From Prorocentrum cordatum (Eukaryota > Sar > Dinophyceae > Prorocentrales > Prorocentraceae): a DNA stretch of 64,000 nt. Numbering within the stretch: position 1 is the stretch's first letter; every line of letters begins with the position of its first letter. Where the stretch lies: positions 72,240 to 136,239 of the forward strand of contig CAUYUJ010016144.1 of assembly GCA_963575745.1 (NCBI GenBank), written 5' to 3'. Positions 18,736 through 39,599 of the stretch are shown here, piece after piece. Under the pieces are notes generated by a model. It searched no databases, was not told the DNA's origin, and saw only the letters and a list, made by a program, of their open reading frames with translations. The translations under genes were made by a program, and so were the position numbers.

Positions 18736-19152
18736 AGGAAAAAAATTAGCCTGGCGAAGGACCCAACCATATGCAGTTGAGAGTACCGCAATTGTGAATA
18801 TCTTCTTCGGTGGCGCTCCCTATGGGGCCACGAGCCGTATGAGGGGTGTGCCGAAATGCGTGGCAGTGTACACAACACGAACGAAGACGATAGGTCCGAA
18901 TATGAAAGCTTGAGCGCGTGCGAGTCGGATCGCGAGCGAGTCTGATTATGAATGAATCTGCGCGCGATTGATTCTATTCGCATGAATGCGTGCATGGATA
19001 CGCCCAGTGTAAATGTATGTATACGACTGTGAACAGTTTGGGTCTGCGTGACTCTCGGTACTCGTGACTCTGAGCGTCGCCTCTGCAGGGGGCTTCCCTG
19101 GGAACCCCGACGGCAGCGCCCGCGCGCCGCGACGCCCATGTCGGCACGCCAC
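18735..19152. repeat. Left flank of satellite array 1, duplicated on the right
   Basis: AGCCTGGCGAAGGACCCAAC, CATATGCAGTTG, CTTCTTCGGTGGCGCTCCC and the later CTCTGCAGGGGGCTTCCCTG recur in the same order and orientation at 20818-21000, to the right of the array. Confidence 0.85.
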
Positions 19153-20608
19153 ACACCTGGTGTGCGGGACGCATGCGGACGGCAGCACTGGGGCCTTCGG
19201 TGGAGCTCCCTGTGGGGCCACGAAACGTGTGAGGGGTGTGCCGAAATGGGTGTGCGGGACGCATGCGGACGGCAGCCATGGGGCCTTCGGTGGAGCTCCC
19301 TATGGGGCCACGAAACGTGTGAGGGGTGTGCCGAAATGGGTGTGCGGGACGCATGCGGACGGCAGCACTGGGGCCTTCGGTGGAGCTCCCTGTGGGGCCA
19401 CGAAACGTGTGAGGGGTGTGCCGAAATGGGTGTGCGGGACGCATGCGGACGGCAGCCATGGGGCCTTCGGTGGAGCTCCCTATGGGGCCACGAAACGTGT
19501 GAGGGGTGTGCCGAAATGGGTGTGCGGGACGCATGCGGACGGCAGCATGGGGCCTTCGGTGGAGCTCCCTGTGGGGCCACGAAACGTGTGACGTGGGGTG
19601 TAGGGGTGCTCCCTATCGGTGTGATGCTGCGGGACGCATGCGGACGGTGGGGCCTTCGGTGGAGCTCCCTATGGGGCCACGAAACGTGTGAGGGGTGTGC
19701 CGAAATGGGTGTGCGGGACGCATGCGGACGGCAGCATGGGGCCTTCGGTGGAGCTCCCTGTGGGGCCACGAAACGTGTGAGGGGTGTGCCGAAATGGGTG
19801 TGCGGGACGCATGCGGACGGCAGCACTGGGGCCTTCGGTGGAGCTCCCTGTGGGGCCACGAAACGTGTGAGGGGTGTGCCGAAATGGGTGTGCGGGACGC
19901 ATGCGGACGGCAGCCATGGGGCCTTCGGTGGAGCTCCCTATGGGGCCACGAAACGTGTGAGGGGTGTGCCGAAATGGGTGTGCGGGACGCATGCGGACGG
20001 CAGCACTGGGGCCTTCGGTGGAGCTCCCTGTGGGGCCACGAAACGTGTGAGGGGTGTGCCGAAATGGGTGTGCGGGACGCATGCGGACGGCAGCACTGGG
20101 GCCTTCGGTGGAGCTCCCTGTGGGGCCACGAAACGTGTGAGGGGTGTGCCGAAATGGGTGTGCGGGACGCATGCGGACGGCAGCCATGGGGCCTTCGGTG
20201 GAGCTCCCTATGGGGCCACGAAACGTGTGAGGGGTGTGCCGAAATGGGTGTGCGGGACGCATGCGGACGGCAGCACTGGGGCCTTCGGTGGAGCTCCCTG
20301 TGGGGCCACGAAACGTGTGAGGGGTGTGCCGAAATGGGTGTGCGGGACGCATGCGGACGGCAGCACTGGGGCCTTCGGTGGAGCTCCCTGTGGGGCCACG
20401 AAACGTGTGAGGGGTGTGCCGAAATGGGTGTGCGGGACGCATGCGGACGGCAGCCATGGGGCCTTCGGTGGAGCTCCCTATGGGGCCACGAAACGTGTGA
20501 GGGGTGTGCCGAAATGGTGTGCGGGACGCATGCGGACGGCAGCACTGGGGCCTTCGGTGGAGCTCCCTATGGGGCCACGAAACGTGTGAGGGGTGTGCCG
20601 AAATGGGT
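19153..20608. repeat. 90-bp satellite, array 1 (about 16 units, AB and AAB higher-order pattern)
   Basis: The monomer runs GGGGCCACGAAACGTGTGAG, GGGTGTGCCGAAATGGG, TGTGCGGGACGCATGCGG, ACGGCAGC, a variant site, then GGGGCCTTCGGTGGAGCTCC. Because 90 is divisible by three, several frames on both strands are open for hundreds of codons. Units are almost identical except for two linked variant sites: type A (CACTGG with CCCTGTGG) and type B (CCATGG with CCCTATGG). The order is A-B-A-B, then diverged or truncated units near 19540-19740, then A-B-A-A-B-A-A-B. Near-identity at all codon positions argues for recent DNA-level amplification rather than a conserved protein. Confidence 0.95.
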
Positions 20609-21397: not shown

Positions 21398-21672
21398 TCA
21401 GGCCTCGCGGATAAACTCAGTGAAGCCGAGGTCCTTGGCGAGGGCCGTGGCCTCCCTCCTGCACCGCTTCGTGCGCGCCGCAAACTGCTCCAGCTGCTTC
21501 CGCAAGCCCGCCGGCGGCCCGGCCAGGAAGAACTCGATGCGCGGCGCCCGCATGAGCAGGAGGTCCTCGTGTCGCGTGGCGCGCGAGAGCAGCACGTAGA
21601 GCTCCAGCCACCAGTCGTCGTCCTCCTTCTTGCCGTTCCCGACCTCGTGGCGGCCGCAGTCCAGGATCACGC
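21398..21672 (-). CDS. Helitron helicase, last exon (PIF1 motif VI)
   Basis: Encodes the end of the PIF1-type superfamily 1 helicase. It begins after an AG acceptor (CGCCCAG|GCGTGATC) with VILDCGRHEVGNGKK, then WWLELYVLLSRATRHEDLLL, which contains the motif VI arginine that contacts ATP, and ends FTEFIREA with a TGA stop at 21398. Without this exon the helicase would lack motif VI. The preceding intron is about 150 bp (about 21673-21823); its donor appears to be GA rather than GT, as is common in dinoflagellates, but the exact donor cannot be fixed from genomic sequence. Confidence 0.8.
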
Positions 21673-21823
21673 CTGGGCGACGTCGGCCGAGGGAGCGGTG
21701 CGCCCGGCAGCCGACGGCCCAGGGCGGCGAGAGTCCACAGGACCGAGGTCTGGCTGCGGACTGCTCGCGCCCCGGAGGTCTCGCTGTCCCCGGAGCGCCG
21801 TTCCCCCGCCCCGTCGCCTTCTC

Positions 21824-22811
21824 GCATGGTGCGCCCCTGGCACGCCACCGTGGTGATGACCCTGCCGTGCGAGAACGGGAAGCCCGTCCGGGTGACCTTG
21901 GAGGTGCGGAAGGTGAACGCCTCCGACGTGCGGGGCTCGATGAACACCAGCGGGCCCGCGAGGTCCCTCGCGAGGCTGTCGTCGTGGCGCTTCAGGTCGT
22001 CCACGAAGGGCGCGCTCGCGTACTTCTCCATGCGCACCCAGAACCCCAGCGGCAAGCGCTTCAGGTAGATTCTCTTCTCCCCGTCTCTCTCTGCTCTCTC
22101 GACGTCGCCCCGATCCCGAGGGTCCACGACGATGTGCACGATCTGCCCCTCGGCGTCCTTGACGAGGCCGTTCTTGAGGTCGAGCGCCTCCAGGAGCCGG
22201 ATCCGCATGCCCACGTGCGCCGGGAGCAGTCCGTGCATGCCACCGGTATTCTTCGGGTTGGCACAGTTCATCATCTTGGCGGCGTCCTTGACGCTCATCG
22301 TCGGTGCAGACCTGTCGGCGGCCTGCACGAGGAACAGGGGCTTCTTCAGGACGTCCGCGTCCCGCTGAGCACGCATGTTCATCCAGCGCGCCACGGTGTC
22401 CCAGTAGGACCCGATCATGTGGCCGTTCTGGAACCTCTCCTCCCGGAGCCGGCGATCATCGGGTTTCAGCTGCATGGCGTTCCACGTGGCCCGGATGGCC
22501 GGAGGGACCTGCTTCCCCGGCTTGCGCAGGAACGCCATGAGGTCCCTGAGTTTCGGGTCCTTGAAGCGGTTGGACGCCTGGAGCTCGAAGCACAGCGGCG
22601 TGTTGCAGAAGAGCTTCATCACTGCCTGGTACTCTGGAGCGAGGTTGATGCCCGCCGCCGCCAGCTCCTCGAAGCTGGAGATGAGCGACACCTTGCCTCC
22701 CGTCGGCTTCAGCTGCAGGAAGTCCCCCAGGTGGATCACGATGGGCATCCGTCCGAAGGCGCCGCCGACCTGGTCGTACTCCCGCTCCTCCGCGCCCCAC
22801 TCGGCCTTGCG
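21824..22811 (-). CDS. Helitron helicase, motifs III-V
   Basis: Continuous frame with the upstream segment apart from a TGA at 22812-22814. It opens RKAEWGAEEREYDQVGG, then MPIVIHLGDFLQLKP (motif III, compare GDFxQLPP in PIF1), a region with ELQASNRFKDPKLRDLMAFL, and ends near 21830 with ITTVACQGRTM, equivalent to the PIF1 motif preceding the VI arginine. The gap between motifs III and V is about 275 residues, long for PIF1 but usual in Helitron helicases. Upstream it needs read-through or correction of the TGA. Confidence 0.8.
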
Positions 22812-22814
22812 TCA
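22812..22814 (-). other. In-frame TGA within the helicase
   Basis: On the - strand TACCTG TGA CGCAAG joins RSYL to RKAEWG with no frame change, between helicase motifs II and III. A CGA-to-TGA transition at a CpG is the simplest explanation. Confidence 0.8.
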
Positions 22815-25800
22815 CAGGTAGGACCGGAACGCCAGCATGTTGTACAGGTTGGGCGAGATCATGCTCACCTCCTCCAGGATCAAGCACCTGACCGCCTCCC
22901 ACGTGTCCTGTAGCGCTTTCAGCCTGCCCCCCGCGGGTATGTCCTTGTTCCTGAAGGACTGCACTCCGATGACTCCCGCCCGGTGGCAACTGACGGCCTT
23001 GTGAGCGTCCGTGGAGATGTTCGCGGCCTGGGACCACTTCGCGCAGACTATCAGCGTGGACTTCGCCTTGCCCGTTTCCACAGGGAACAGCGCGTCCATG
23101 GCCGGCAGCACGATCTCCTGCACCATGGCCGTCTTCCCGCTGCCGCCCTGGCCGAGGAGCAGGAACTGGAACGTCTTCCGCTTCGCGTGCTTGGCCATGC
23201 TGCCGTCCTCGATCTTCTGCTCCTCGTCCCACGCCACGTTGCAGGCGTTCGCGAACGCCGTGACGAACAGGGCCTGGTCGGGCTTCAGAGGGCGGCGCTC
23301 CTGCTTCCCCGTGCTCGGGTTGACCACGCCGTCCTCGAACTTTTTGACGAGGCGCTTGACGAGGTCGCTGGGCCGCTGCAACTCCTCCGACGGCCCCCAC
23401 CGCGCCTGCGCCGCCTCGGCCGGCATCGCGCCAGCACCCGCTGCCCCGACGTCGTCCGGCTCGGGGGCGTCGTCCGCGGGCACGTCCGCGTCCTTCGCGC
23501 CCCCCTTGGCGAACCTCTTTCGCTGGGTCTCCACCAGGTCCTTCAGCTCTTCTGCGTCGAGGTCGCGCAAAGCCCTGAACGGAGCGAGGACGTCTTCCTT
23601 CAGGGCGCGGGCAGCACGCCGCGGCGCGTCGGCGTCAGTCGGCCCGGGTAGCGCGCCGTTCTCCATCATCGTGGCGGCCTTCTTGAGCTCCTTCACGAAT
23701 GCCTGCGTGCGCTCGGCGGTGTCGAAGCGCAAGATCTGCCCGAGCGTCTCGGGGTCGAAGTGGTGCTCCAGGACAACGTTGGCGCCCAGCTTCGCGAAGC
23801 CGTCCTGAGCGCGGATGCCCTGGGCCTCCACCTGCGCGGCGCCCGCCCCCGAATCCTCGGCGCCCTCCCGGAACACGGGGGCCTCCGCGACCTGCACGTC
23901 GTCCTTCTGCGGCCTCTTCGGCTTCGAAGCCTTCGCCTTGGAGATGCCGTCGAAGTTGGCCGCGGTCTTCGTGGTCTCCAGGGCCAGGTACTCCTGCACC
24001 GTCAGCATGCTGCCCAGCCAGTTGCCCAGCTCCGCGCACTGGGCGCACTGGCACGGAGGCTGCACGTCCTCGCGGCGGTCGCTGCGCTTCTCGCGCAGCG
24101 CGGACTCGACTTCCTCCGTGTTCCAGATGCTGGGCGTCGCCCACGACCCGACGTCATTCCTGAGGCACTTCGCCCGGGCCGTCTTCGCCAGTTGCTCCTG
24201 GGCGGTGGCGAACGACTCCCAGCCGCGCTGGAACGGGCCCGCCACGCCCTCCCCCGCCGGCTGCGCCGGCCACTCCGGCTCGCCCTCCGGCGCCGCGCAC
24301 AGGTGCTCGTACGCGCGGAGGTAGCGCAGCTCCTTCGTGTCGTTGGGGCCGTCGGCGTCCGGCAGGCGCACTGGCCGGAGCAGCACCGACTTCATGAGGT
24401 AGTGCGTCTCCACGTTCGACTCCGCGCTCACGAACTGGAAGCCTTCGGCCTTCGGGATGCGCGGCTCGACGGCCAGCCTCTGCGTCCAGTTCCGCGCCGC
24501 CGAGTAGGAGGAGTCGAAGGCGATGTCGACGTGCAGGGTGCGACCCCCGCTGCCCTCGGGATCCAGCTCCCCGGCCGGAAGGGCATGCAGCGGCAGTTCC
24601 ACGCGGTACACCCAGATGCTGTAGACGTACAAGCTCATGTCTCGGACAATAGGGTGGTCTCCGCGGTGCATCCAGTCGTCGTGCTGGCTCAGCACTGCGC
24701 CCCTGAACTTGCCCTGCGCGAGGCCCTCGACAGTCGGCCCCGGTGCCTCGGGCACCTCTTCGGCCTCGCCTTCCCGCAACTTGTTCAGCGCCTTCGTCAC
24801 GTCGCGCAGCGAGCTGCCGCTGGCGTTCGCGATCTGGAACGCCTGGTGCGCGTACTCGATCGTGTCGAACTCCTCGCCGTCGGGGCTGACGTACACCGTC
24901 TCGCCCTCGCGCTGCACCTCGCGCCACCCTGGCATCGCGACCTGCTGTCCAGTGCCGGGGACCGCGTACGTGATCGAGGCGGCGGGTGCGCTTTCCGCGG
25001 CGTCGGCCTGGCCGTGCCGCCTGCGCCAGGACTCCGCGGCGAGGTAGATGGATTTCCGCATGAACACCTTCCAGCAACGGTGCGTCATGAAGGAGAGGTG
25101 CCCGAAGAGCATGGGGAAGACCATCTCGCTGCCGCTCTTCCAGGAGGCCCTGCGGAAGCAGGTCTCGAAGCGGGCCAGCACCTGCAGCGTGCGCTTGAAA
25201 TCCTCCTTGCGCTTTCCTGCGGCTGTCGACTGGGCCTCGTCGCCGGCGTCGCCCGCGGCCTGCGCCCCCTTGTCGTCCCACTGGCTCTTCAGGCGGCGCA
25301 CGCCGTCAAGGAGCTTGCAAAGCACGTCGTCCATGCTGGGGTTCACCTTCGTGGTGTACGAGTTGACGTAGTAGCTCGCGTTGTGGGCGCCCACGAAGGT
25401 GGCCAGCGCGTGCCGCTCCAGGTCGCGCTGGAGATCGGCGCGCGCAGCGTCGCCACTGTCCACGGCGGGGCTGTCGCGGTTCGCGAGTGTCCTGTAGATC
25501 CCGTGCCAGTCGGTGACTACGACGAGGTCCCACTTCTCCGCGGGCGTGGTGTTCAGATGCTGGAACCATCCCCAGTCCTCCCGGGCGCCCACCGAGAAGT
25601 CGGCGTAGCGCTGAGGGTAGAGGCCATGGTTGTAGCTCTTGCGGTCCTCCTCGTTCGCCGGCGGTTCCAGCTCCGACGCATCCATCCACAGGCGCGGGGG
25701 CAGCACCCGTCTCATGTCCTGCACGTCCACGTTGCACCGCGCCGCGACGAGTGCCGCGTACTTCGTGGAGGTCTCCCCGGGGTGGAGCTGGAAGGTGACG

Positions 25801-26192
25801 ATGCGTCCGGCCATGCCGTAGTCCGTCTCCCGGAATATGCCGATGCAGCCGCGCAGCGCCTTCCCGCGCGTGCGGAGTCGGCACTCTCGGGAGTCCTCAC
25901 CCTCGGTCCACGTGCACAATGTCACCAGGTTGTAGAAGTTGTGGCGGCAGATCTGCGAGCCGCGCGTCCTGTCGGAATGGTACTTGTACTTGTAGCAAGA
26001 GGGGCTGCAGACGTGGATGCCGCAGCCGATGACGAGCTCGCGCACGTCGCGGCACATCTCGCGAATCCACTCCTCGCTCGGGAGAGACTTCGCCAGGGTG
26101 CCCCCGCCGCGGTACCTCGGGAAGATGCCGGAGGCGCTGCTGGAGAGCGGCCGCCGCCAGTACCCCTTGTTCTCCGCGGCCCTCTGCTCTGT
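22812..26192 (-). CDS. Helitron Rep C-terminal half (two-tyrosine motif) and helicase motifs I-II
   Basis: About 1,125 codons open in one frame. The N-terminal part (ENKGYWRRPL...; SYYVNSYTTKVNPSM at about 25335-25380) holds the paired tyrosines and lysine that make the covalent DNA intermediate in Helitron Rep proteins. A long linker includes CxxCxxC-like PPCQCAQCAELG. The C-terminal part has Walker A LLLGQGGSGKTAMV (23121-23163), STDAHKAVSCHRAGV and the motif II-like LILEEVSMIS, where PIF1 usually has DE. The segment ends at TGA 22812-22814. The frame is continuous upstream through the TGA at 26193-26195 into the HUH segment, so these are pieces of one protein. Confidence 0.85.
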   Translation of the reverse strand, partial: TEQRAAENKGYWRRPLSSSASGIFPRYRGGGTLAKSLPSEEWIREMCRDVRELVIGCGIHVCSPSCYKYKYHSDRTRGSQICRHNFYNLVTLCTWTEGEDSRECRLRTRGKALRGCIGIFRETDYGMAGRIVTFQLHPGETSTKYAALVAARCNVDVQDMRRVLPPRLWMDASELEPPANEEDRKSYNHGLYPQRYADFSVGAREDWGWFQHLNTTPAEKWDLVVVTDWHGIYRTLANRDSPAVDSGDAARADLQRDLERHALATFVGAHNASYYVNSYTTKVNPSMDDVLCKLLDGVRRLKSQWDDKGAQAAGDAGDEAQSTAAGKRKEDFKRTLQVLARFETCFRRASWKSGSEMVFPMLFGHLSFMTHRCWKVFMRKSIYLAAESWRRRHGQADAAESAPAASITYAVPGTGQQVAMPGWREVQREGETVYVSPDGEEFDTIEYAHQAFQIANASGSSLRDVTKALNKLREGEAEEVPEAPGPTVEGLAQGKFRGAVLSQHDDWMHRGDHPIVRDMSLYVYSIWVYRVELPLHALPAGELDPEGSGGRTLHVDIAFDSSYSAARNWTQRLAVEPRIPKAEGFQFVSAESNVETHYLMKSVLLRPVRLPDADGPNDTKELRYLRAYEHLCAAPEGEPEWPAQPAGEGVAGPFQRGWESFATAQEQLAKTARAKCLRNDVGSWATPSIWNTEEVESALREKRSDRREDVQPPCQCAQCAELGNWLGSMLTVQEYLALETTKTAANFDGISKAKASKPKRPQKDDVQVAEAPVFREGAEDSGAGAAQVEAQGIRAQDGFAKLGANVVLEHHFDPETLGQILRFDTAERTQAFVKELKKAATMMENGALPGPTDADAPRRAARALKEDVLAPFRALRDLDAEELKDLVETQRKRFAKGGAKDADVPADDAPEPDDVGAAGAGAMPAEAAQARWGPSEELQRPSDLVKRLVKKFEDGVVNPSTGKQERRPLKPDQALFVTAFANACNVAWDEEQKIEDGSMAKHAKRKTFQFLLLGQGGSGKTAMVQEIVLPAMDALFPVETGKAKSTLIVCAKWSQAANISTDAHKAVSCHRAGVIGVQSFRNKDIPAGGRLKALQDTWEAVRCLILEEVSMISPNLYNMLAFRSYL

Positions 26193-26195
26193 TCA
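26193..26195 (-). other. In-frame TGA between the HUH and tyrosine motifs of Rep
   Basis: On the - strand GCGGCG TGA ACAGAG joins DDVAA to TEQRAAENKG with no frame change. No plausible intron surrounds it: the nearest GT...AG pair is only about a dozen bases. Confidence 0.8.
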
Positions 26196-27475
26196 CGCCG
26201 CAACGTCGTCCACGATCTCGCCGCCGTTGTTGCGCAGCGGCAGATCGGGGCGAATCGCCCTGTGGTAGTCGTCTACCTTGGGCTCGTAGAACCACAGCTC
26301 CTGCGGCTCCGTCTCGCCTCCGTCCCCGAGCTGCTCTGCAGTCGCCATCTCCGCGCCCCCGTCGGCCCGGAAGTACTGCTTCTCGTTGGGCCCGAACGGC
26401 AGCGGCGGCACCGTGACCCCGCACTTGTTCTCGCCCCCCTGCAGCTGCAGGGGCAGCAGCTCCACGGCGCTCTGCTGAGTGGCGACCACGGCCTGCACCA
26501 CCTGCCGCATCCACAGGTTCAAGCGCTCCTGGAAGCGCGCCTCGTCGCGCTGCAGCATGTCCAAGAGCACGCGCAGCTGACCCTGCAGCAGCCAGATGAG
26601 GATGTGAGGGTGCAGCGAGCCGCGGCCCTGAGCCTCGACCGGGCCGAAGGCCGCCGCGAGGGGGCCGAACACCGTGGGCACGCCCATGAGGTCGGCCGCC
26701 ACGCCGTCGGATATCCAGTGCCCCGAAGCCTTTCGGACTTCTCCTCGCCGCCACCCGACGGTCTCCGGGCGCAGGCCGAGGACGTGGACGAAGAACAGCC
26801 TCATCATCAGCTCGAACACCACGGCCTGGCCCACGGGGTCCGCGGTGATGCGCTGCGACATCTCGCTGAACGTGACTTGCTCCGCCTCGGTCAGGTCGTT
26901 GTCGAAGGTGTACTCCTCCCCCTGCACGATCAGGATCAGGGGCTGCTTGGTGTCTGCCAGATTCGGGGTGACGAACTGGACGGGCGGGCCGAAGCGCAGG
27001 GTATACGCCTCGCCCTCTCCGCGCAGCTCCCGCCTGTGTCCGTCGGACCCGACTTGGCCGGCAGTGGCCTGGCCCAGGGTGGCGAAGGCCTTGCGCACCT
27101 CGTTCGGGGTGTCCTTGTCCTTGAGGATGCCGTGCAGCGTGGCCTTCCCGCCCGCCTGCTGCGCCCTGAGCTGCACCTCCTCGATCATCTCCGGCGTGAT
27201 GTCCGCGCAGGCGCGAGCGGCCCCGAACGCCCCGGGCGTCTTCATCAAGGTGTAGGTGCTGTTGGTCGTCTCCGTGACTCTCCAGAAGGAGCACAGCAGG
27301 TGCACGTCGTACCAGCAGCTCCGGAAACGACTGATGGGCCTGGCCACGTACTTCTCCTCGTCCGAAGGCACATCGTACTCCATCTCCTCCCGCGTGAGAA
27401 GATTCTTGATGAAGTGCGCCACGCTGAAGCAGAGCCGAGCCTCCTTCTGCCTCTGCGGGTCCTCATCTCCGTCCG
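26193..27475 (-). CDS. Helitron Rep N-terminal half (Helitron_like_N, HUH motif)
   Basis: From the frameshift at 27475-27481 the frame reads GDEDPQRQKEARLCFS, then VAHFIKNLLTREEMEYDVPS and a Helitron_like_N domain. Landmarks are SFWRVTETTNSTYTLMKTPG, TFSEMSQRITADPVGQAVVF, FVHVLGLRPETVGW, and the metal-binding HUH core GRGSLHPHILIWLL (about 26585-26625), in which the two histidines bracket a proline. It cuts single-stranded DNA together with the tyrosines downstream. The segment ends at the TGA 26193-26195. Confidence 0.85.
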
Positions 27476-27481
27476 GGGGGG
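27475..27481 (-). other. Frameshift at a C7 (G7 on +) run between DUF6570 and Rep segments
   Basis: The DUF6570 frame reads CAG CTC CCC CCC GGA and ends at a TGA a few codons on (LGQLPPGRR stop). One C fewer restores QLPPDGDEDPQRQK into the Rep frame. It may be a true mutation or a base-calling error in the homopolymer. Confidence 0.75.
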
Positions 27482-29250
27482 AGCTGGCCGAGGCCCCAGG
27501 CGCAGTCCCCGTAGCAGAAGTCCGTGGGCCTGGCAATCGACCAGTACTTCGGATTCCACCAGCTCTCCGCCTTCCTCGAAGTGGGCACCCGAAGCCTCGC
27601 CTTCCGCTGGCCGTCTGGGCCGGGCGGTCCCTGCAAGGAGCGCGGATCGTCCTCGGCGGGAGTCCCCGCGACTCCTGCAGATCGCGCCAAGTCGCCCGCG
27701 CCCTCCTCCGCCTGACAGTTGTTGGTCTCCAGCGCCTGGACGCGCCAGTGCAGCTTCGCCATGTCCTCCCCCGGGGAGATCTTCCGACAGCGCGCGTGGA
27801 ACTCCTGGCAGAGGTCCCGCAGGCGGCCACGCCCGATCTCGTCCAGCTGCAGCGCCCTATCATCGCCTCCCTGGTCCTCGAGTCTGGACATCAGCTCGTT
27901 GGCCACCACGCGACCCGCCTGACTCTCCATCCTCTCGAGCATGCCCTGGAGCGCCGGCAGGGACGTGAGCTCGCTGACGTCGTCCATGTGGTCCTCGAGG
28001 ACGGACAGCCACTTGGTCAGCTCCTGCGCGTCCTCGGCGGCCGCGCTCATCTCTGCCTGCGCACCGGTGGTGGCCGACGCGGGACCCTGCGACTGCGCGA
28101 CGTCGTCCAGCGCCGCGTCCGTGGGGACATACTTCGCGCAGGCCAGCATGAAGTCGGGCACGCCCGGCTGCGGGGGGAACCGGTCCACGAGGTCCGATCG
28201 GCACTGCACGCCCGGGTCATTGCACACGTAGTTGTGCTGCTTCAACAACCGCGCCTGGGCGTCGCACTCCGCCTTGTCGACGCGCAACGCCACCTCCTCC
28301 CTCATGGCTCTCAAGGCCCTCTCCTGCTTCTGCTCCTCGGTCAGGGGGGCGCCCTCCTCGTCGTCGTCGGCGCCCGCGAAGACGGCCACGAACGTGTCCC
28401 TGAGCATGTCGGGCTCCGGCGGGAAGCTCCGCATCGCGTGGTCCACGTTCCCGTTCCCGAACACGATGGCGGTGCCCTGCATGGCGTACTGCAAGAACTT
28501 CTGCCTCCACGACTGCTGCTCCTGCCGGACGGCCTTGTCGGCGCCCTTGCTGGACAGGTAGATCTTCGTGGACACGACGCGGCCGAGCGCGAGCAGCAAC
28601 TGGTGCGCGAGAGCGGCCTTCCTGAGCAGCGGGCGGTGGCGGCCCAGCCAGAGGTCGTTCACCAGCGCCATGAGCGGCACCTTGGGGTGATCAGACCACG
28701 GGACTTTCCGGCAATCGTCGCAGACTTTCACCGGCACCTTCCCTTCGAGCGCCTCGGGCGGCACGCGCCTCTTGTGCAAGAGTATCTTCGTGGACGTCGG
28801 CGAGCCCTCGCAGTCGTCGTGGGGAAAGTTCACGGCCGACGACATCAGCTCGTCGCGCGGTATGAGGGGCCATCGTTGGTGATACCACTCGGCCGACAGG
28901 CAGTCCGCGAACTGGGCCCGGTCCTTTACGGTGCACTTGTCGCCGACCAGGTACTCCGAGTGGAGGTTCTCGGACCACTGCTGCATGGCGCAGCAGACGC
29001 AGGCCTGGAAAGCGCGGGGCTCCCTCGCCCGGCACGCCGCCTGAGCGCGGGCTGCCGACTCCGCCGCGCCGGCCGCCTGCAGGGGGATCTCCTCCGCGGG
29101 CCCCCCCTGCCCGATCTTGCCGGCGATCCTGCCGATGATCTCCGCGTGGAGCAGCTGCTTCTGCACCTCCGGTTCAGGCTTCGGGACGAACGGCTCGTCC
29201 ACGGGGTCGACGGTGGCGCAGCACTGGGAAATGTGGAACCTGGCAACCAC
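27482..29250 (-). CDS. Helitron DUF6570-like exon
   Basis: Begins after an AG acceptor at 29251 with VVARFHISQCCATVDPVDEP and reads about 590 codons to the C7 frameshift. VPVKVCDDCRKVPW is a CxxC segment; VPLMALVNDLWLGRHRPLL (about 28625-28680) with LAHQLLLALGRVVSTKIYL is characteristic of DUF6570, the domain that precedes Helitron_like_N in many eukaryotic Helitron polyproteins. HNYVCNDPGVQCRSDLVDRF and the acidic, coiled-coil-prone AEDAQELTKWLSVLEDHMDD follow. The biochemical role of DUF6570 is unknown. The frame upstream of 29250 is intron, not protein. Confidence 0.8.
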
Positions 29251-29382
29251 CTGCAGCGATGGCGGGGAGCACCGCCCGACCCCCAGCGCTCTCGATGCCC
29301 TTAGCGCTGGCGCCGGGAGCGCCAGCGCTAAGGGCACGTCTCCGAGGGCTGGGCGCAGTTCCCCGCCGCCCGCTCGCCTGAC
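29251..29382 (-). other. Predicted 132-bp intron containing a perfect hairpin
   Basis: Donor region GAGGAGG|GTCAGGCG at 29382 and acceptor GCTGCAG|GTGG at 29251, with an extra G either side, so the splice point is ambiguous by a base or so. Joining gives PSPTEE then VVARFHIS. Inside lies an 18-bp perfect inverted repeat (29296-29336). Confidence 0.65.
29296..29336. repeat. Perfect 18-bp inverted repeat in the Helitron intron, 5-nt loop
   Basis: TGCCCTTAGCGCTGGCGC at 29296-29313 and GCGCCAGCGCTAAGGGCA at 29319-29336 are exact reverse complements. Confidence 0.95.
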
Positions 29383-31363
29383 CCTCCTCGGTCGGCGACG
29401 GCTGGTAGGGCTCCAGCTCGCACCGCGCCACATACTGCGACTGGTACCACCGCTGCCCCCCGTGGACTCTGCCCTGGTGCGCCTTGAACGCCTCCCTGTT
29501 GGGGAACTCGGCCTCGCACATGCGGCAGGCATAATGCAGCGCAGGCGCGGGGCACTGGAACCAGTCAGAGCGATCCCGAAGGCGCGCAGGCATGGCGGCG
29601 CGCCGGGGAGGGCCGCGGTTGCAGGGTCTGCGCTGCCACGCCTCCGCGAGGTGCGCCCTCAGCGGGTTGCCGTCGCCCAGCGCGGCCGACGCGTCGCTCG
29701 CCGCCAGGCGGGCCGCGGCCGCCACGGAGGGGGCGCCGTGGGCGGAGCCCAGGCGCTCGTCCAGGAGCTCCGCGACGTGGTGCACGTGCCATTCCCCGCT
29801 CTCCAGTCGACGCTTGGCGTCGGAAATCTCGTTCTCCGTGACCCCGAGCGCTTCCCGCAGTCTCCCGGCCAACTTGTCGGGTCGATCGGGTGCCTGCAGG
29901 AACGTCGCCCATCGGCGGGTGCAGTCGTCGCCCGCGTAGACGAAGAAGTCAGGGTAATGCTTCAGCAGGTCATCGGCAGCGACCAGCGGCTCCAGCAAGT
30001 GCAGGAGCAGGAAGAGATCCCCACACAACCGGCGCTCCTCGCTGGCGGTCTGCAAGCTCTTCGCCTCCCTGCTGCTGCGGAGGACAGGGGCGGCGGCGTT
30101 GTTCTGGGCGTCCTGTCTGGATCCGTCGGCGTTGTCGCCCTTGCTCTTCGGCTTCCGCCCCTGTCGCAGTACCTCCTCCGGCTTGCAACCGCGCTTCTGA
30201 TCCTCCCTGGCCTGCTGCCTCCCAGCGCGGCTCTGCTGCTGCTGCCTCCCAGCGCGGCTCTGCTGCCTCCCGGCGCGGCTCTGCTGCTGCTGCCTCCCAG
30301 CGCGGCTCTGCTGCCTCCCAGCGCGGCTCTGCTGCCGTCCAGCAGCGCTCTGTTTCCCTCGGAGGCGGAGCCGCTTCTTGGCAGGGGCGCCGCTCCTCGT
30401 GGACGCCGCGGGCCGCTTCCGCGCGCCCGGCACGCCAGCGTCGCCGGCCCCGTCCTCCTCCTCGTCGCACTCCCCGTCGAGGCCGGGGCTGTCCTCGCCG
30501 TCCGCGTCGCCGTCGCCGTCGCCGCCCGCGCCCTCCGCGCCGTCGACGACCGGCCCGGGCGGCCACGGGCACGCCTCGGCGCGGGCCGCCCTGGAGTCCA
30601 CCTTCTCAAGGAAGATCATGCAAGGTATCTTGTGCTCGGTGCCAGGCGCCCACTGGACCACGTGCGGCCGATCGCCCAGGTCGTCTGCAGTGTACCAGCT
30701 CCCGTCCTCCTCGAAGTGAGCCACGAAGTGGCCCTGGGGGTCATTCAGGAAGTGGGATGGGACGGCTTCCGATCCCTCGGGCAGGATGTACTGCACGTAG
30801 GCGCGCAGGCGGTACGCGACGTCTTCCTCCCCCGCCCTCAGAGCCACCTCCGGGAGGTCACCCCAGTAGGGCGCGATGTCGCAGCCGCCGAGGAAGAGCG
30901 CCGCGCCGTCGCCCCGCTCCCACCTCTGGGGCACGTGGACCGCCAGCAACTCGGGCTTCGATCGCAGTCGCCCGCCCATGGAGGCGCCGCGGCGGAGCAG
31001 CTCTCGCACGTCCAGTCGCTGCGCGCCCCCGTCGAGGAAGAAGTCCTGCGGCGACAGGGCGTCGTCGCCGTCGTCTGCCCCGTCCACGAATGCCGGGAGC
31101 CTCATCATGGCCTCCTCGTCGCATCCCGTCTGGAAGAGGCTGGCGAGACCAGGCGCGTCTTCCAGGATGAACGACAGCGCCTCACTCGCGTCCGCGTACC
31201 TCCCCAGCTTGAAGTCCACCCAGTGCTTCGCGAGGAACGCGTCCACGAAGGCGTGCGGGGACCAGCGGTCCACGCGGGCCGGCGCCGGCGCGGCGCCGCC
31301 GTCGCCCTCCGCCAGGCTCGGCGGCGCCCCGCGCACGCAGGCGGTCGCCAGGGCGCGCAGCTC
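29383..31363 (-). CDS. Helitron USP-like protease C-terminal part and C2H2 finger
   Basis: Frame of the 1,097-codon ORF that ends at 29174. From about 31363 it reads ELRALATACVRGAPPSLAEG, then DRWSPHAFVDAFLAKHWVDF. YILPEGSEAVPSHFLNDPQG with HFVAHFEEDGSWYTADD (about 30700-30740) and CMIFLEK match the His box and C-terminal strand of ubiquitin-specific proteases (peptidase C19), where this His pairs with the Cys at 31618. A Lys/Arg-rich stretch (KKRLRLRGK) and four or more SRAGRQQ repeats follow (about 30235-30350), probably nuclear-targeting and linker sequence. CRMCEAEFPNREAFKAHQGR ending VH (about 29480-29530) is a good C2H2 finger, a likely DNA-binding module. The exon ends at the 29382 intron. 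Confidence 0.75.
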
Positions 31364-31513
31364 CTCGAGAGAGGGTGAGAAACCCAGGCCGACTGCCTCC
31401 CATACCCCGCCCTGTCCACGCGCCAATCGTCTCCCCTCCCCTGCGGAGGGAGGAACCCCAAAAATCAACCGGGGGCTGTGCCGGAGTGAAGACATCGACG
31501 AGATTTCCCCCAC
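31364..31513 (-). other. Probable intron inside the USP-like domain (approximate limits)
   Basis: Between LILQDAG in one frame and ELRALATAC in another. A GT-like donor (GCGGG|GTGGGGG) and a CTCGAG|GAGC acceptor are the closest candidates, but the codon phase does not fit perfectly, so the limits are uncertain or a further indel is present. Confidence 0.4.
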
Positions 31514-31790
31514 CCCGCGTCCTGCAGAATCAGCGGCTCGCCCTGGCCCTCCGCCCCCAGGAACGCGGCGCGCGCGGCGGGGCAGTGGAGGAGGCACTGC
31601 AAGGGCGCGTTGAGGTAGCAGGTGTTGCACAGGTTCGAGAGGCCGGGGTATGGGCGCTGGCCGCCGCGCGACCGATGCAGGGCGGGATGCCTCCAACGGT
31701 CCTCGTCGTGGACGTCGTTCCCCTCGCACCAGTGCTGAGGGAAGCATCCGCAGTGCCTGCTCTGCGCCCTCGGCACGCTCATCCTCCAGC
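31514..31790 (-). CDS. Helitron USP-like protease, catalytic cysteine segment
   Basis: SRHCGCFPQHWCEGNDVHDE, then PYPGLSNLCNTCYLNAPLQC followed by LLHCPAARAAFLGAEGQGE. This is the Cys box of ubiquitin-specific proteases (family consensus GLxNLGNTCYxNSxLQ); the nucleophile is the second cysteine of NTC, codon 31618-31620. The usual NLG is NLC here. The segment is in a different frame from both neighbours: a one-base shift near 31.78 kb joins it to the upstream DERAEGAEQ segment, and an intron or indel near 31.5 kb to the downstream one. Recognition rests on the Cys box plus the properly spaced His box 900 bp downstream. Confidence 0.75.
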
Positions 31791-32467
31791 CTCGATTCCC
31801 GACCGGCCTGCACCAGCGCGTCGATGCGCTCCTTTAGGACCTGGGCCGCTGGCTGCAGCCTGCTGGCCCCCCTCCACCTCTGCCACCTCCTCGCCAAGTC
31901 ATCCTCGGGCCCCCTTCCGGGACGCTGGCGCCGTGGCCAGCGGCCGCGCTCACTGTGCCAGGCCAGAACGTCGCGGAACGTCGCGGCCGCGACGTCCCGT
32001 CGACCTCCCGCTGTCCGAGGAGTCGGGCCCCGGCGGCGAGCAGTCCCGGGAGTCTGCCGGGGGCGCCTGCCCGCGGCCGAGGCGCCCGGTGTCTGCGGAC
32101 CTCCCTGCTTCGGGCCCGATGCCGGGGTGCCTCTCGGCGCCGGGGAACCGCGCGGCGACGGCCCTCGTTTCCCTCTCACCCGGCGCCGAGGCGGGCAATC
32201 CTGCTGGCGCCGCGGCGTCTGGGGGCCATCGCTTGGGCACTGCGCGTGCTGTGCTCGCAGACGGCGCAGCTCAGCGCGCCGCTCCGTCTCCGGCATCCGC
32301 AGGAGGCAGACCTTGTCCGCCGTGGCCGCGGCGAAATTCTCGCGCGGCGGGCCTCTGATGGAGGGCTCGCCCGCAGTCCGCAATCTCACTGTAAAGGTCA
32401 CTGTTCCGCCTCGCTCATTCTTGTCCACATTGATCCGACATCTCGTCCCGCTGCCCTTGGGAGGCAT
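31791..32467 (-). CDS. Helitron N-terminal segment
   Basis: ATG at 32467 (MPPKGSGTRCRINVDKNERG). A strand-like beginning (GTVTFTVRLR) is followed by a long Pro/Arg/Gly-rich region and then a more ordered stretch, TFRDVLAWHSERGRWPRR with DDLARRWQRWRG and VLKERIDALVQ, before the frameshift near 31.79 kb. No known domain is assigned. It may be a DNA-binding helical region typical of the N-termini of dinoflagellate Helitron proteins, which is an inference. Confidence 0.55.
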
Positions 32468-33105: not shown

Positions 33106-33145
33106 GAGACCCCCGTCGTTTTGGTATCAAAACGACGGGGGTCTC
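33106..33145. repeat. Perfect 18-bp inverted repeat, 4-nt loop
   Basis: GAGACCCCCGTCGTTTTG (33106-33123) and CAAAACGACGGGGGTCTC (33128-33145), loop GTAT. It lies about 150 bp outside the outer Helitron repeats. Confidence 0.97.
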
Positions 33146-34375: not shown

Positions 34376-34708
34376 GAAGATTCCCCAAAAGCGGCGCGGC
34401 CCTAAAGGATTCCCCAGCCCTGGCGCGGCCCTAAGGGATTGGACCACATCCCGATCTAGGCCATTGTGACGAGGAAGAGGCCTGCTGGACCAGATCACGA
34501 TCTAGTCTAAAGCAGAGGAGGAGTGGGCGGAGGAGGAGGAGGAGAGAGGGGAGGAGGAAGAGGGAGAGCCTGCCTACCGCGGCCGCTTGCGAGCGCGCTC
34601 TTGGGGCGCGCTCGGCGTCGTCGCCGCCGACGGCGGCCCGGGCGTCGCCGCTGCCGGCGGCGGCAACCCCAGCGCCGCCGCCGCCGTCGCTGCCCCGACC
34701 GTCCTGCC

Positions 34709-36087
34709 CACGAAACGTGTGAGGGGTGTGCCGAAATGGGTGTGCGGGACGCATGCGGACGGCAGCCATGGGGCCTTCGGTGGAGCTCCCTGTGGGGCCA
34801 CGAAACGTGTGAGGGGTGTGCCGAAATGGGTGTGCGGGACGCATGCGGACGGCAGCACTGGGGCCTTCGGTGGAGCTCCCTGGGGCCACGAAACGTGTGA
34901 GGGGTGTGCCGAAATGGGTGTGCGGGACGCATGCGGGCAGCACTGGGGCCTTCGGTGGAGCTCCCTGTGGGGCCACGAAACGTGTGAGGGGTGTGCCGAA
35001 ATGGGTGTGCGGGACGCATGCGGACGGCCATGGGGCCTTCGGTGGAGCAGCCACGAAACGTGTGAGGGGGGCCTGTCGACGTGGAGCTCCCTGGATGGGG
35101 CCACGAAACGTGTGATGGGCCTTCGGTGGGGTGTGCCGAAATGGGTGTGCGGGACAGGGGTGTGCCGAAATGGGTGTGCGGACGCGCGGACGGCAGCCTG
35201 GGGCCTTCGGTGGAGCTCCCTGTGGGGCCACGAAACGTGTGAGGGGTGTGCCGAAATGGGTGTGCGGGACGCATGCGGACGGCAGCCATGGGGCCTTCGG
35301 TGGAGCTCCCTATGGGGCCACGAAACGTGTGAGGGGTGTGCCGAAATGGGTGTGCGGGACGCATGCGGACGGCAGCCTGGGGCCTTCGGTGGAGCTCCCT
35401 TGGGGCCACGAAACGTGTGAGGGGTGTGCCTCCCTATGGGGCCACGAAACGTGTGAGGGGTGTGCCGAAATGGGTGTGCGTACGCAGCGGGAGCGGCAGC
35501 AGCACTGGGGCCTTCGGTGGAGCTCCCTGTGGGGCCACGAAACGTGTGAGGGGTGTGCCGAAATGGGTGTGCGGGACGCATGCGGACGGCAGCTGGGGCC
35601 TTCGGTGGAGCTCCCTGTGGGGCCACGAAACGTGTGAGGGGTGTGCCGAAATGGGTGTGCGGGACGCATGCGGACGGCAGCCATGGGGCCTTCGGTGGAG
35701 CTCCCTGTGGGGCCACGAAACGTGTGAGGGGTGTGCCGAAATGGGTGTGCGGGACGCATGCGGACGGCAGCCCTGGGGCCTTCGGTGGAGCTCCCTGTGG
35801 GGCCACGAAACGTGTGAGGGGTGTGCCGAAATGGGTGTGCGGGACGCATGCGGACGGCAGCCATGGGGCCTTCGGTGGAGCTCCCTATGGGGCCACGAAA
35901 CGTGTGAGGGGTGTGCCGAAATGGGTGTGCGGGACGCATGCGGACGGCAGCACTGGGGCCTTCGGTGGAGGCAGCCTGGGGGTTCGGTGGAGCTCTGTGC
36001 CGAAATGCGGGACGCATGCGGACGCAGCCATGGGGCCTTCGGTGGAGCTCCCTATGGGGCACGAAACTGTGAGGGGTGTGCCGAAGT
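34709..36087. repeat. 90-bp satellite, array 2 (scrambled and truncated units)
   Basis: Same monomer as array 1, but many units carry internal deletions and rearrangements (34990-35180, 35395-35500, 35950-36060) and A/B variant sites are mixed within units. About fifteen monomers. It ends in the same (GAT)n(GAG)n and unique 55 bp as array 1. Confidence 0.95.
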
Positions 36088-36720: not shown

Positions 36721-36882
36721 ACCCCGCTATTGTAGCGTCCGTCCGGTGTTTTCTGAGGGCTCTCTGGGGGCCGTCTTCGGGCCGCCAGGCTCCTCGGCTA
36801 CATCATCTACGACATATGTCAGCCAATAGGCTGTCGCCGTCTGTCGGACCCGCCGCATTCCCCTGGCAAGGCACCTGCGGAT

Positions 36883-37135
36883 TTGATCCACGCGTGCGCA
36901 CTGGTCTGCTACAACGCCGGGATCAGCGCGTGCGAGAAAGGCATGCAGTGGCAGTGGGCATTGTCTCTGCTCTCGGAAATGTGGCAGGATCAATTGAAGC
37001 CCGACGTCATCAGCTTCAGCTCCGGGATAAGCGCCTGCGGGAAGGACGGGCAGTGGCAGCAGGCGCTGTCGATGCTATGCGACATGCGGGAGTGCAAGGT
37101 AGAGCCCAACATCACCTACAGTGCCCGCATAATGA
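36883..37135 (+). CDS. PPR protein fragment, block 4 (two units)
   Basis: VCYNAGISACEKGMQWQWAL with SLLSEMWQDQLKPD, and ISFSSGISACGKDGQWQQAL with SMLCDMRECKVEPN: two adjacent 35-residue PPR units. The frame runs from 36883 to 37476, but beyond NITYSARI it has no PPR features. The start is unlike the other blocks (GCACTG|GTCTGCTAC rather than AG|TCAGCTAC). Likely a fragment or single exon. Confidence 0.65.
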
Positions 37136-37329
37136 AGACGGGCATCCTTCCCGAGGGTACCCGTGCATCCTTGCCTCCTCGGCCCATCCCTGGCCACTTT
37201 CGTTGGCCGCGCCCCGCTGGAAGAGCTTCGGAGTGGGCGTCCGAGGCCATCGCATCCTCATCCTGCGTCCTTGTTGTGCGGGTGGACTGTACCGGGCACT
37301 GCGCGTGCCCGCGGAACAGTCGGCTGCGC

Positions 37330-38005
37330 CCGTCCGGGCCCGCGGCGGCGGAGCCGGCGCGGGCCCCCTCTCGTGGAGCGAGACACCGCCCTGGCCCGGG
37401 GAGAGCCCCGCGAGGGCCCCGAGGGGCCCCCTGCGAGCGCTCCTCTGCAGCGCAAGAGGGCTCCCAGACGGCCTGAGAAGGCCCCCACCAAGTTTCACCA
37501 GGCTCCGAGATGGCCTCCGAGAGGGCCACGAGGACGTAAAACTATTTTGATAGTCTATGGATTTTGATCCACACTTCCTCTTTCGATCGCTTCTGCGGCC
37601 AAAAGACCCAACCCACCCCGAGAAGCCTCCGAAATCGTCTGGAGGGCGCCCAGGTAGCTCTCAAGACAGCCCCTACGGCGGCCCCAGAGACTCGTAAGAC
37701 GGCGTTGGGCAAGACAGCCCCAAGGGAGGCCCAACAGGGCCAACTCTGGAGCGCTCCCCCCTCCCACGGCCAGCAAGCCCCCAGGAAGCCCCCCAGAGGC
37801 TCCCAGGCGGTCTCCGGGGCACTCCCCAGAGGTTCCCGAAAAGGTTCCAGCAGCTACCTCGAAACGGCGTTGACATGCTCCTACAAGACCCCAGCTCACT
37901 GGAACAAGTGATACCCCACGAGCTCCTCGAAGGCATCCAGCAGCTCCCACCGAACTGCTCCGATAGGCTCCGAGAAAGCACCAGCTAATTAGAAAAAGCC
38001 ATACT
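37330..38005. repeat. Degenerate GC-rich tract
   Basis: GGCCCC/CCAAGACAGCCCC words and CCAGCAGCTCCCAC-like segments. ORFs here are compositional. Confidence 0.4.
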
Positions 38006-38237
38006 CTACACCAATTGGGACACCTCTCGCGCGGGAGGGGGTGCAAAAAATAGCTGTCCGATCCACCCGCGGCCACCTGGGAACGCCGTTTCTGCGATTC
38101 TTCCCGCGCTGAGCGTGTCCCAAGAGGTGTGAGGTGCGGTTGTTGTCCCATCATCTTGGGCCTCCTCATTCTCCTTTCCGTCGTCGCTCGCCTCCGTCAC
38201 AGGCGCTTCCGCCCGCGGAGTCGGAACCGCACGATTT

Positions 38238-38480
38238 CTCGGAGGGGGAAGAGGAGGAAGAGGAGGAGCAGGAGGAGGAGGAATAGGAGGAGCAGCAGCA
38301 GCAGGAGCCGAAGGACAAGGACATGCCAAGCACGAGGAGGAGGAGGAGGAGGCGGAGGAGGAGGAGGAGGAGGAGGCGGAGGACGAGGAAAAGCCAAGCA
38401 CGAGGATGAATAAAGGAGGAGGAGAAGGAGGAGGAGGAGGAGCTGCTGCTGCTGCTGCTGTTGCTGTTGCTCATGCCCCT
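38238..38480. repeat. (GAG)n and (GCT)n microsatellites
   Basis: GAGGAGGAG with CAGCAGCAG interruptions to about 38440, then GCTGCTGCTGCTGTTGCTG to about 38470. Confidence 0.9.
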
Positions 38481-38610
38481 AGATCCGCTGCCGCTGATAC
38501 TGCTAGCGCTGCTCTGGACGCCGTCAGAATCATCAAGCAAACAGCGCACCCTGACGCAATGAGTAGCAGGAAGGGTACTCAGACCATTGGCATCCGTGGA
38601 CGGTAGTCCA

Positions 38611-38970
38611 CGGGCCAGCCCTAGTCAGCTACAACGCTGGAATCAGTGCTTGCGAGAAGGACGGGCAGTGGCAGCAAGTTCTTTATTTGCTCAGCGACGT
38701 GCGGGAGGCGACAATTTTGCCCGACGTGATCAGCTACAGCGCTGGGATCAGCGTGTGCGAGAAAGCAGAGCAGTGGCAGTGGGCAATGTCGTTGCTTACC
38801 GAGCTGCGGCAGCAAAAGCTGGAGCCCAACGTTATCAGCTACAATGCTGGGATCAGCGCGTGCGCGCGAAGCGGGCAGTGGCAACGGGCTCTGTCGCTGC
38901 TCGGCGGCATGTACCGCGAGAAGGTGGAGCAAGACGTCATCTACGCTAACACTGCTGGCAGCCGCGCTTG
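38611..38970 (+). CDS. PPR protein fragment, block 5 (three units)
   Basis: Preceded by CCACGGGCCAGCCCTAG|TCAGCTACAAC, the shared boundary. Units: VSYNAGISACEKDGQWQQVL, ISYSAGISVCEKAEQWQWAM and ISYNAGISACARSGQWQRAL, the last ending MYREKVEQDV near 38940. The frame then continues to 39478 across a GC-rich tract and a foldback element and is not protein-like. The first in-frame ATG (38687) falls inside the first PPR unit, so translation must start upstream in another exon, or the block is an exon relic. Confidence 0.7.
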
Positions 38971-39209
38971 CCAGATGCATCGAGACGGGCTGTGCGGTTC
39001 CGCCCGTGCCGCGCCACCGGCCTGGGCGCCCCGAGGCCCGTTGGGTCACTCCGAGTCGGCCCCGAGCGGGCCCCGGAGCCTCGGGGACTGCGCCCGAGAA
39101 GGCCCAAAGAGGCCTCACGACGCGCACGGGAAGCCCCACGAGAGGCCCCGAAGAGGCGCAGGGAGACCCCGAAGTGCAAGAAGAAATGAAAAGCGCGTGG
39201 TCCGAATAC

Positions 39210-39405
39210 AGGGGAACAGAAAGTGGCATAAACATAAAAAACTCGGAGGTCCGCGCGGATCTCTCGGATCGGCTGGGTCCCCCCGGCGGCGCCTCCGGCG
39301 CCGCCCCTGGCGCGCTCCGCGCGCCAGGGAGGGGGGTCCAGCGCCGATCCGAGAAATCCGCGCGGACTTCCGAGTTTTGATGTTTATGTCACTTTTCGTT
39401 CCCCT
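39210..39405. mobile_element. Foldback element, family B, copy 2 (about 196 bp)
   Basis: Left end AGGGGAACAGAAAGTGGCAT, AAACATAAAAAACTCGGAGG and TCCGCGCGGATCTCTCGGAT. The right end is the reverse complement with a few differences (CGAGTTTTGATGTTTATGTC, ACTTTTCGTTCCCCT). The centre is GC-rich with GCGCGCCAGGGAGG. Confidence 0.85.
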
Positions 39406-39599
39406 AGAACATGCTATTCGGCACAATGTTGCTTCAAAGGGTGTCGCACGCCCTCCGAGTGCCCCAAGAAGCTTATGACACAACCCCAGGTAACCCCAAG
39501 GAGGCCCCAGGTAAGCCACAGAGTGTTCCAAGAAGTTTCTAAGACGGCCCCTCAGAGGGTGCCAAGACGGCTCAAAGGGACAACGGAGAGCCCCGATGC

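Follow-up and report, generated by a model that had tools for sequence, protein, structure and literature searches.

The question raised by this locus is what a protease domain of the ubiquitin-specific class (USP, peptidase family C19) is doing in the protein of a transposon. The locus lies in a stretch of 64,000 nucleotides from Prorocentrum cordatum (the window, meaning the whole stretch analysed), which, judged by its sequence, holds a damaged Helitron-type rolling-circle transposon of this dinoflagellate. Along the minus strand follow a basic N-terminus, a Cys box, a His box, a basic linker, a C2H2 finger, a DUF6570 domain, a Rep nuclease and a helicase. An earlier note on this DNA had read the two boxes as the halves of a USP on the same strand as the Rep and helicase modules, and the DUF6570, Rep and helicase motifs do lie downstream of them. 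That a USP-type module is truly part of a Rep/PIF1 element is supported by comparisons within the window and among its relatives, and neither of the outcomes which the earlier note would have taken as a refutation was seen.

The Cys box, NLCNTCYLN, is read from position 31635 with its Cys codon at 31620-31618, and the His box, GHFVAHFEEDGSWYTADD, from 30733 with the His codon at 30730-30728 and the first Asp of its pair at 30685-30683. These positions agree with those proposed earlier (Cys at 31618, His near 30.72 kb), as do the distance of ~900 bases and the different frames of the two halves. Each box pattern had a single match in the six-frame translation of the window, and the catalytic Cys, His and Asp/Asn occur there in that order, the Asp being presumably the residue that serves in USP7. 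The profile search suggested in the earlier note came out positive, in that the open reading frame (ORF) with the Cys box matched Pfam UCH (PF00443) at 5e-7 (30.0 bits, cut-off 23.9) and the joined halves matched at 3.2e-9 (37.2 bits), with scores among relatives reaching 74.7 bits. The His half alone gave no UCH match in the Pfam scan. A profile was also built from the USPs of five distant Helitrons (P0026, P0027, P0028, P0031 and P0034; such numbers designate the predicted proteins of relatives) and run against the window's ORFs of 40 or more residues (927 in all). The two best scores were 44.2 bits for the His ORF (E 8.2e-13) and 35.6 bits for the Cys ORF (E 3.5e-10), the next ORF having an E of 0.3. 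With the same profile the exon carrying the His half scored 48.8 bits against a maximum of 5.9 among the 1,011 of 2,000 shuffles listed.

A protein search with a long translation that included the USP half found nine P. cordatum gene models, among them P0008, which matched 63% of the query stretch and was 100% identical to the window there. The query of this search favoured USP carriers. A set of 30 relatives was collected with a Rep-only query (residues 640-1900 of P0011); it includes 15 proteins from P. cordatum, one from Effrenium voratum and one from Adineta ricciae. UCH and Helitron_like_N occurred together in nine of the 30 according to precomputed Pfam matches, and the distant-USP profile matched 19 (weakest E 2.6e-4, Z = 1000), a count that includes the five sequences from which the profile was built, each of which passes Pfam UCH independently. 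Twenty relatives, namely the 19 USP carriers and the rotifer protein, have 400 or more residues ahead of the DUF6570 block, a limit set after the data had been seen. No convincing USP match was found in the remaining 10, which have a short upstream sequence or no DUF6570 block, nor specifically in P0024 (373 residues upstream, 2.8 bits). The rotifer protein, P0037 from A. ricciae (E 1.1e-5), has DUF6570, Helitron_like_N and PIF1 with no USP match, and may represent the outgroup architecture.

Of the 20 relatives whose upstream sequence is long enough, 19 have the USP in the same place, ahead of DUF6570 and Rep, the order that the earlier note had proposed to look for in other dinoflagellate Helitrons. 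The three are joined in one predicted protein in relatives, and in P0028 and P0031 a single predicted protein has UCH (profile positions 2-241 of 254), DUF6570, Helitron_like_N and PIF1, the coding sequence of P0031 filling 9.5 kb of its 9,966-base contig. This constancy of place, kept at Rep identities down to 34-36%, argues against the view that the USP is an ordinary host gene beside the Helitron, or one captured by accident and now a decaying passenger. It is true that Helitrons capture genes, that catalytic positions have been lost in some copies (P0009) and that the window copy is broken, but the fusion is in frame in the predicted proteins and the triad residues are kept between two versions of the USP exon that otherwise share 57% identity, and a passenger is accordingly improbable.

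How long the USP has been on these elements was considered with a Rep tree of 28 of the 30 sequences (P0019 and P0037 omitted for short overlap; quick method, midpoint root), which separated a fully supported group of 19 from a group of eight (support 81), with P0035 on a long branch. Carriers in the larger group are the P. cordatum family with P0020, P0021 and P0022, and those in the smaller group are P0026, P0027, P0028, P0031 and P0034. Since the USP is present on both sides of the tree and in Effrenium, a member of the Suessiales where Prorocentrum belongs to the Prorocentrales, the comparison indicates that it was not captured by this single element and is an old, standing part of a dinoflagellate Helitron group. 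The USPs of P0026, P0027, P0028 and P0031 scored 122-391 bits against one another and at most 55 with any solved USP (P0031 47.9 bits, P0026 54.9 bits with USP46). Against the other four distant Helitron USPs, that of Effrenium reached no more than 41-61 bits, about as much as P0026 with solved USP46, so that its shared origin is argued from position and not from score. The simplest reading of these comparisons among Helitron and solved USPs is a single old acquisition in dinoflagellate Helitrons.

Within P. cordatum the USP exon exists in two versions, A1 (P0008-P0013) and A2 (P0014-P0016), among the nine models of family A. Identity of the second USP exon was 91% within A1 and 89% within A2, but 57% between them, whereas the DUF6570, Rep and following segments were 92-94% identical between the two. 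For P0010 and P0014, Helitrons otherwise nearly identical, the USP exon is half as similar as the rest of the protein predicts. The USP tree splits A1 from A2 with full support and a long branch, a split that the Rep tree lacks. However, a Rep tree with A2 as a clade was not rejected (p-AU 0.259), which puts exchange and a single long branch of change on an equal footing; the exon has either been exchanged with another lineage or changed very fast. Set against a stable Rep, this points to conflict with the host or to module exchange between elements.

The predicted structures of relatives have a USP fold and match USPs. They also match splicing-factor/tri-snRNP chains, which we take to be Sad1/USP39, and it could be asked on this account whether the domain is a pseudo-USP that binds without enzyme activity, as in the splicing factor USP39/Sad1, the more so as the P. 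cordatum family has other residues in place of the Gly adjoining the nucleophile. The earlier note had singled out this change from NLG to NLC as unusual. The residue before N in NLxNTC varies: other Prorocentrum copies have C, F, R, L or T there, several distant relatives have G, and NLC is best described from these alignments as family drift outside the catalytic triad. The Cys-box segment, Cys included, is found in 10 of the 19 carriers and the His in 18, and Cys, His and Asp/Asn stand together in P0010, P0014, P0022, P0026, P0027, P0028, P0031 and P0034, which makes a pseudo-USP unlikely.

The element in the window is laid out as follows.

about 21398..32467, minus strand: similarity to Helitron polyproteins, from the ATG of the MPPKGSG frame to the helicase end (tblastn of P0014, P0010, P0017, P0020, P0028 and P0031, collinear from 32467 down to 21396)
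31742..32467, minus strand: basic N-terminal region MPPKGSG... (residues 1-233 of P0014 align)
31522..31740, minus strand: Cys-box exon of the USP, frame 0, with the catalytic Cys codon and the Pfam UCH match
31364..31521, minus strand: probable GA-AG intron separating the two USP halves, 158 nt long (NCBI model P0009 makes the same join, LILQ|ELRAL)
30557..31363, minus strand: second USP exon, with the QQD-like box GRYADASEAL and the His box GH..W..ADD (distant-Helitron-USP profile)
30205..30360, minus strand: basic repeat linker of SRAGRQQ repeats, from the translation; similar basic repeats in relatives
29462..29533, minus strand: weak C2H2 zinc finger (zf-C2H2_4, 15 bits, under the cut-off of 27)
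29251..29377, minus strand: probable GC-AG intron with a palindrome (NCBI model P0008 joins exactly there, PTEEGQ|VVARF)
28225..28686, minus strand: DUF6570 domain (PF20209, 9.8e-10)
26595..27140, minus strand: Helitron_like_N, the N-terminal part of Rep (PF14214, 8.3e-14), with the HPH (HUH) motif at 26612-26592
26193..26195, minus strand: stop codon TGA, in frame, within the Rep part of the window copy; relatives read through
25347..25373, minus strand: Rep tyrosine motif YYVNSYTTK (motif search)
22812..22814, minus strand: stop codon TGA, in frame, within the helicase part of the window copy; the matching position of P0020 is open
21566..23153, minus strand: SF1/PIF1-like helicase (motifs; aligned with P0028 and P0031, both matching Pfam PIF1)

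Similarity to relatives begins at the ATG at 32467, upstream of the range first described (29383..31790), and the MPPKGSG start is common to P0002, P0004-P0006 and P0019. The C2H2 finger of P0022 lies at the same place and is likewise under the cut-off (17.5 bits). Both the HxH and the Tyr motif of a Helitron HUH Rep are present in the window, as are the motifs of a PIF1-type helicase, i.e. Walker A GQGGSGKT (23153-23130), LEEVSM (22877-22860), GDFLQLKP (22727-22704) and SRATRHE (21586-21566); PF05970 was found in P0028, P0031 and P0030, and in the window ORFs themselves AAA_19 reached no better than E 0.02 in the Pfam scan.

Both introns are probable, on the evidence of joins in gene models. 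The P. cordatum genome has been described, in the available part of the genome paper, as having introner-rich introns, with gene prediction adapted to GC and GA donor sites (PMC10666404), a description which both the GA-AG intron (31521-31364) and the GC-AG intron (29377-29251) fit. A join from a GT donor at 31513 to an acceptor at 31431, giving ~20 residues more, is an alternative to the preferred P0009 join. Inside the GC-AG intron, which separates the C2H2 finger from DUF6570, a palindrome with two 17-nt arms occupies 29297-29335.

Several features lie outside the coding region. Upstream of the Helitron frame, an inverted repeat of two perfect 18-nt arms around a 4-nt loop (33106-33145) is a possible element-end or regulatory hairpin. 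One 90-base satellite forms two arrays in the same orientation, at ~19033-20590 and 34700-36050 (plus strand), which flank the Helitron coding region and are each followed by GAT/GGA microsatellites; its unit reads in one frame as CGTHADGS.GAFGGAP.GATKRVRGVPKWV. Two long ORFs with VSYNAGISACEKDGQWQQ-like repeats at 36757-39478 (plus strand) resemble a pentatricopeptide-repeat gene.

What might the USP do? The reading preferred here, with a probability of about 0.72, is that a USP-class deubiquitinase is built into the Rep/helicase (RepHel) polyprotein and acts in cis to shield the transposition complex from the proteasome. A single polyprotein would run from the basic N-terminus through the USP, basic repeat linker, C2H2 finger and DUF6570 to the HUH Rep nuclease and PIF1-like helicase. 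What was observed is the domain with its catalytic motifs, a USP fold in relatives, and predicted proteins in which the domain is joined to Rep and helicase, and from homology the USP would be a ubiquitin-cleaving cysteine protease; catalytic activity, ubiquitin as substrate and a protective role are inferred. As the USP is fused to the transposition enzyme, its local targets would be RepHel and proteins at the element, and it may free RepHel itself, or host proteins present where the element replicates, of ubiquitin and thereby keep the complex from the proteasome. It is plausible that ubiquitin removal helps the element, and the presence of the USP across related elements suggests a gain from resisting host protein disposal. 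Dinoflagellate chromatin has few nucleosomes, which makes chromatin deubiquitination a less attractive role.

A number of observations weigh against this reading. The alignment of relatives to the window (tblastn) is broken up by frame changes near 31740 and 27480, and with two in-frame stops in addition, the first of which NCBI model P0008 bypasses by a dubious intron, the window copy is unlikely to be functional. Part of the lesions could be assembly errors, and copies without them exist. Of the Asp pair that follows the His box, P0009 lacks the first; in P0005 and P0006, NNC stands in place of NTC, and P0019 has no His box recognisable by the pattern used. The predicted structures are of middling confidence, and for some relatives' contigs the ENA source does not state a transcript or genomic origin. 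Helitrons have a 5' TC and a 3' CTRR with a hairpin and insert between A and T, and from an inverted-repeat scan of the window the ends of this element could not be assigned.

A protease in so long a protein (3,177 and 3,262 residues), followed by a basic linker, might instead process its own polyprotein, or act on a ubiquitin-like modifier, rather than deubiquitinate targets; viral deubiquitinases are often also polyprotein processors, according to the part of the literature seen (PMC9741609). However, the folds matched are those of USPs, a repeated LRGG-like site was not noticed, though no search was aimed at one, and in a viral structure library the only polyprotein proteases matched, weakly, were the papain-like ones of nidoviruses. 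Self-processing is thus rather unlikely, if less so than a passenger or a pseudo-USP. Matches in that library were mainly USP-annotated proteins, which leaves a match to viral-tegument-like deubiquitinases (VTD) possible, and of 32 stretches in viral contigs that matched a pattern search none was confirmed.

Compared with cellular USPs (USP30, USP35, USP46, USP2, USP21 and Ubp8 of SAGA), the Helitron USP shares the fold and the Cys, QQD and His boxes, but has only 14-27% identity in aligned structures, a shorter domain and a fusion to transposon modules. Parallels are also found in other rolling-circle transposons. OTU cysteine proteases are published on Helentrons, as the earlier note had stated, where they form an additional ORF conserved across families (PMC4067079, in the part available); they too are ubiquitin-pathway proteases on a Rep/helicase element, but the dinoflagellate USP lies within the Rep polyprotein. 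No OTU match was found by Pfam in the 12 relatives scanned or in the window ORFs. Animal Helentrons carry VTD domains in a transposon ORF, those of zebrafish having been shown to cleave ubiquitin, and their authors propose protection from the proteasome as the role (PMC9741609). The hosts named in the portion of that paper seen are vertebrates, insects, cnidarians and molluscs, with dinoflagellates not listed. These elements differ from the dinoflagellate ones in deubiquitinase class and in a C-terminal AP endonuclease, and no endonuclease family was among the Pfam matches of P0028, P0031 or the scanned window ORFs. The open-access literature search, within the text it covered, turned up no description of a Helitron that carries a USP, and the word Helitron was absent from the available text of the P. 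cordatum genome paper (PMC10666404) and of a dinoflagellate genome review, which suggests that the USP is new where OTU (PMC4067079) and VTD (PMC9741609) deubiquitinases on Helentrons are not. It would be a third deubiquitinase class on Helitrons, in a distant eukaryote lineage and within the Rep polyprotein, and ubiquitin's role in transposition becomes testable with an enzyme, a Cys mutant and natural variants defined by sequence. Tentatively, at least three acquisitions of unrelated deubiquitinase classes (OTU, VTD and the dinoflagellate USP) by rolling-circle transposons might mean that escape from ubiquitin is a general need of Helitrons, with the Prorocentrum USP exon exchanged or driven faster than Rep as would be expected in conflict with a host ubiquitin ligase.
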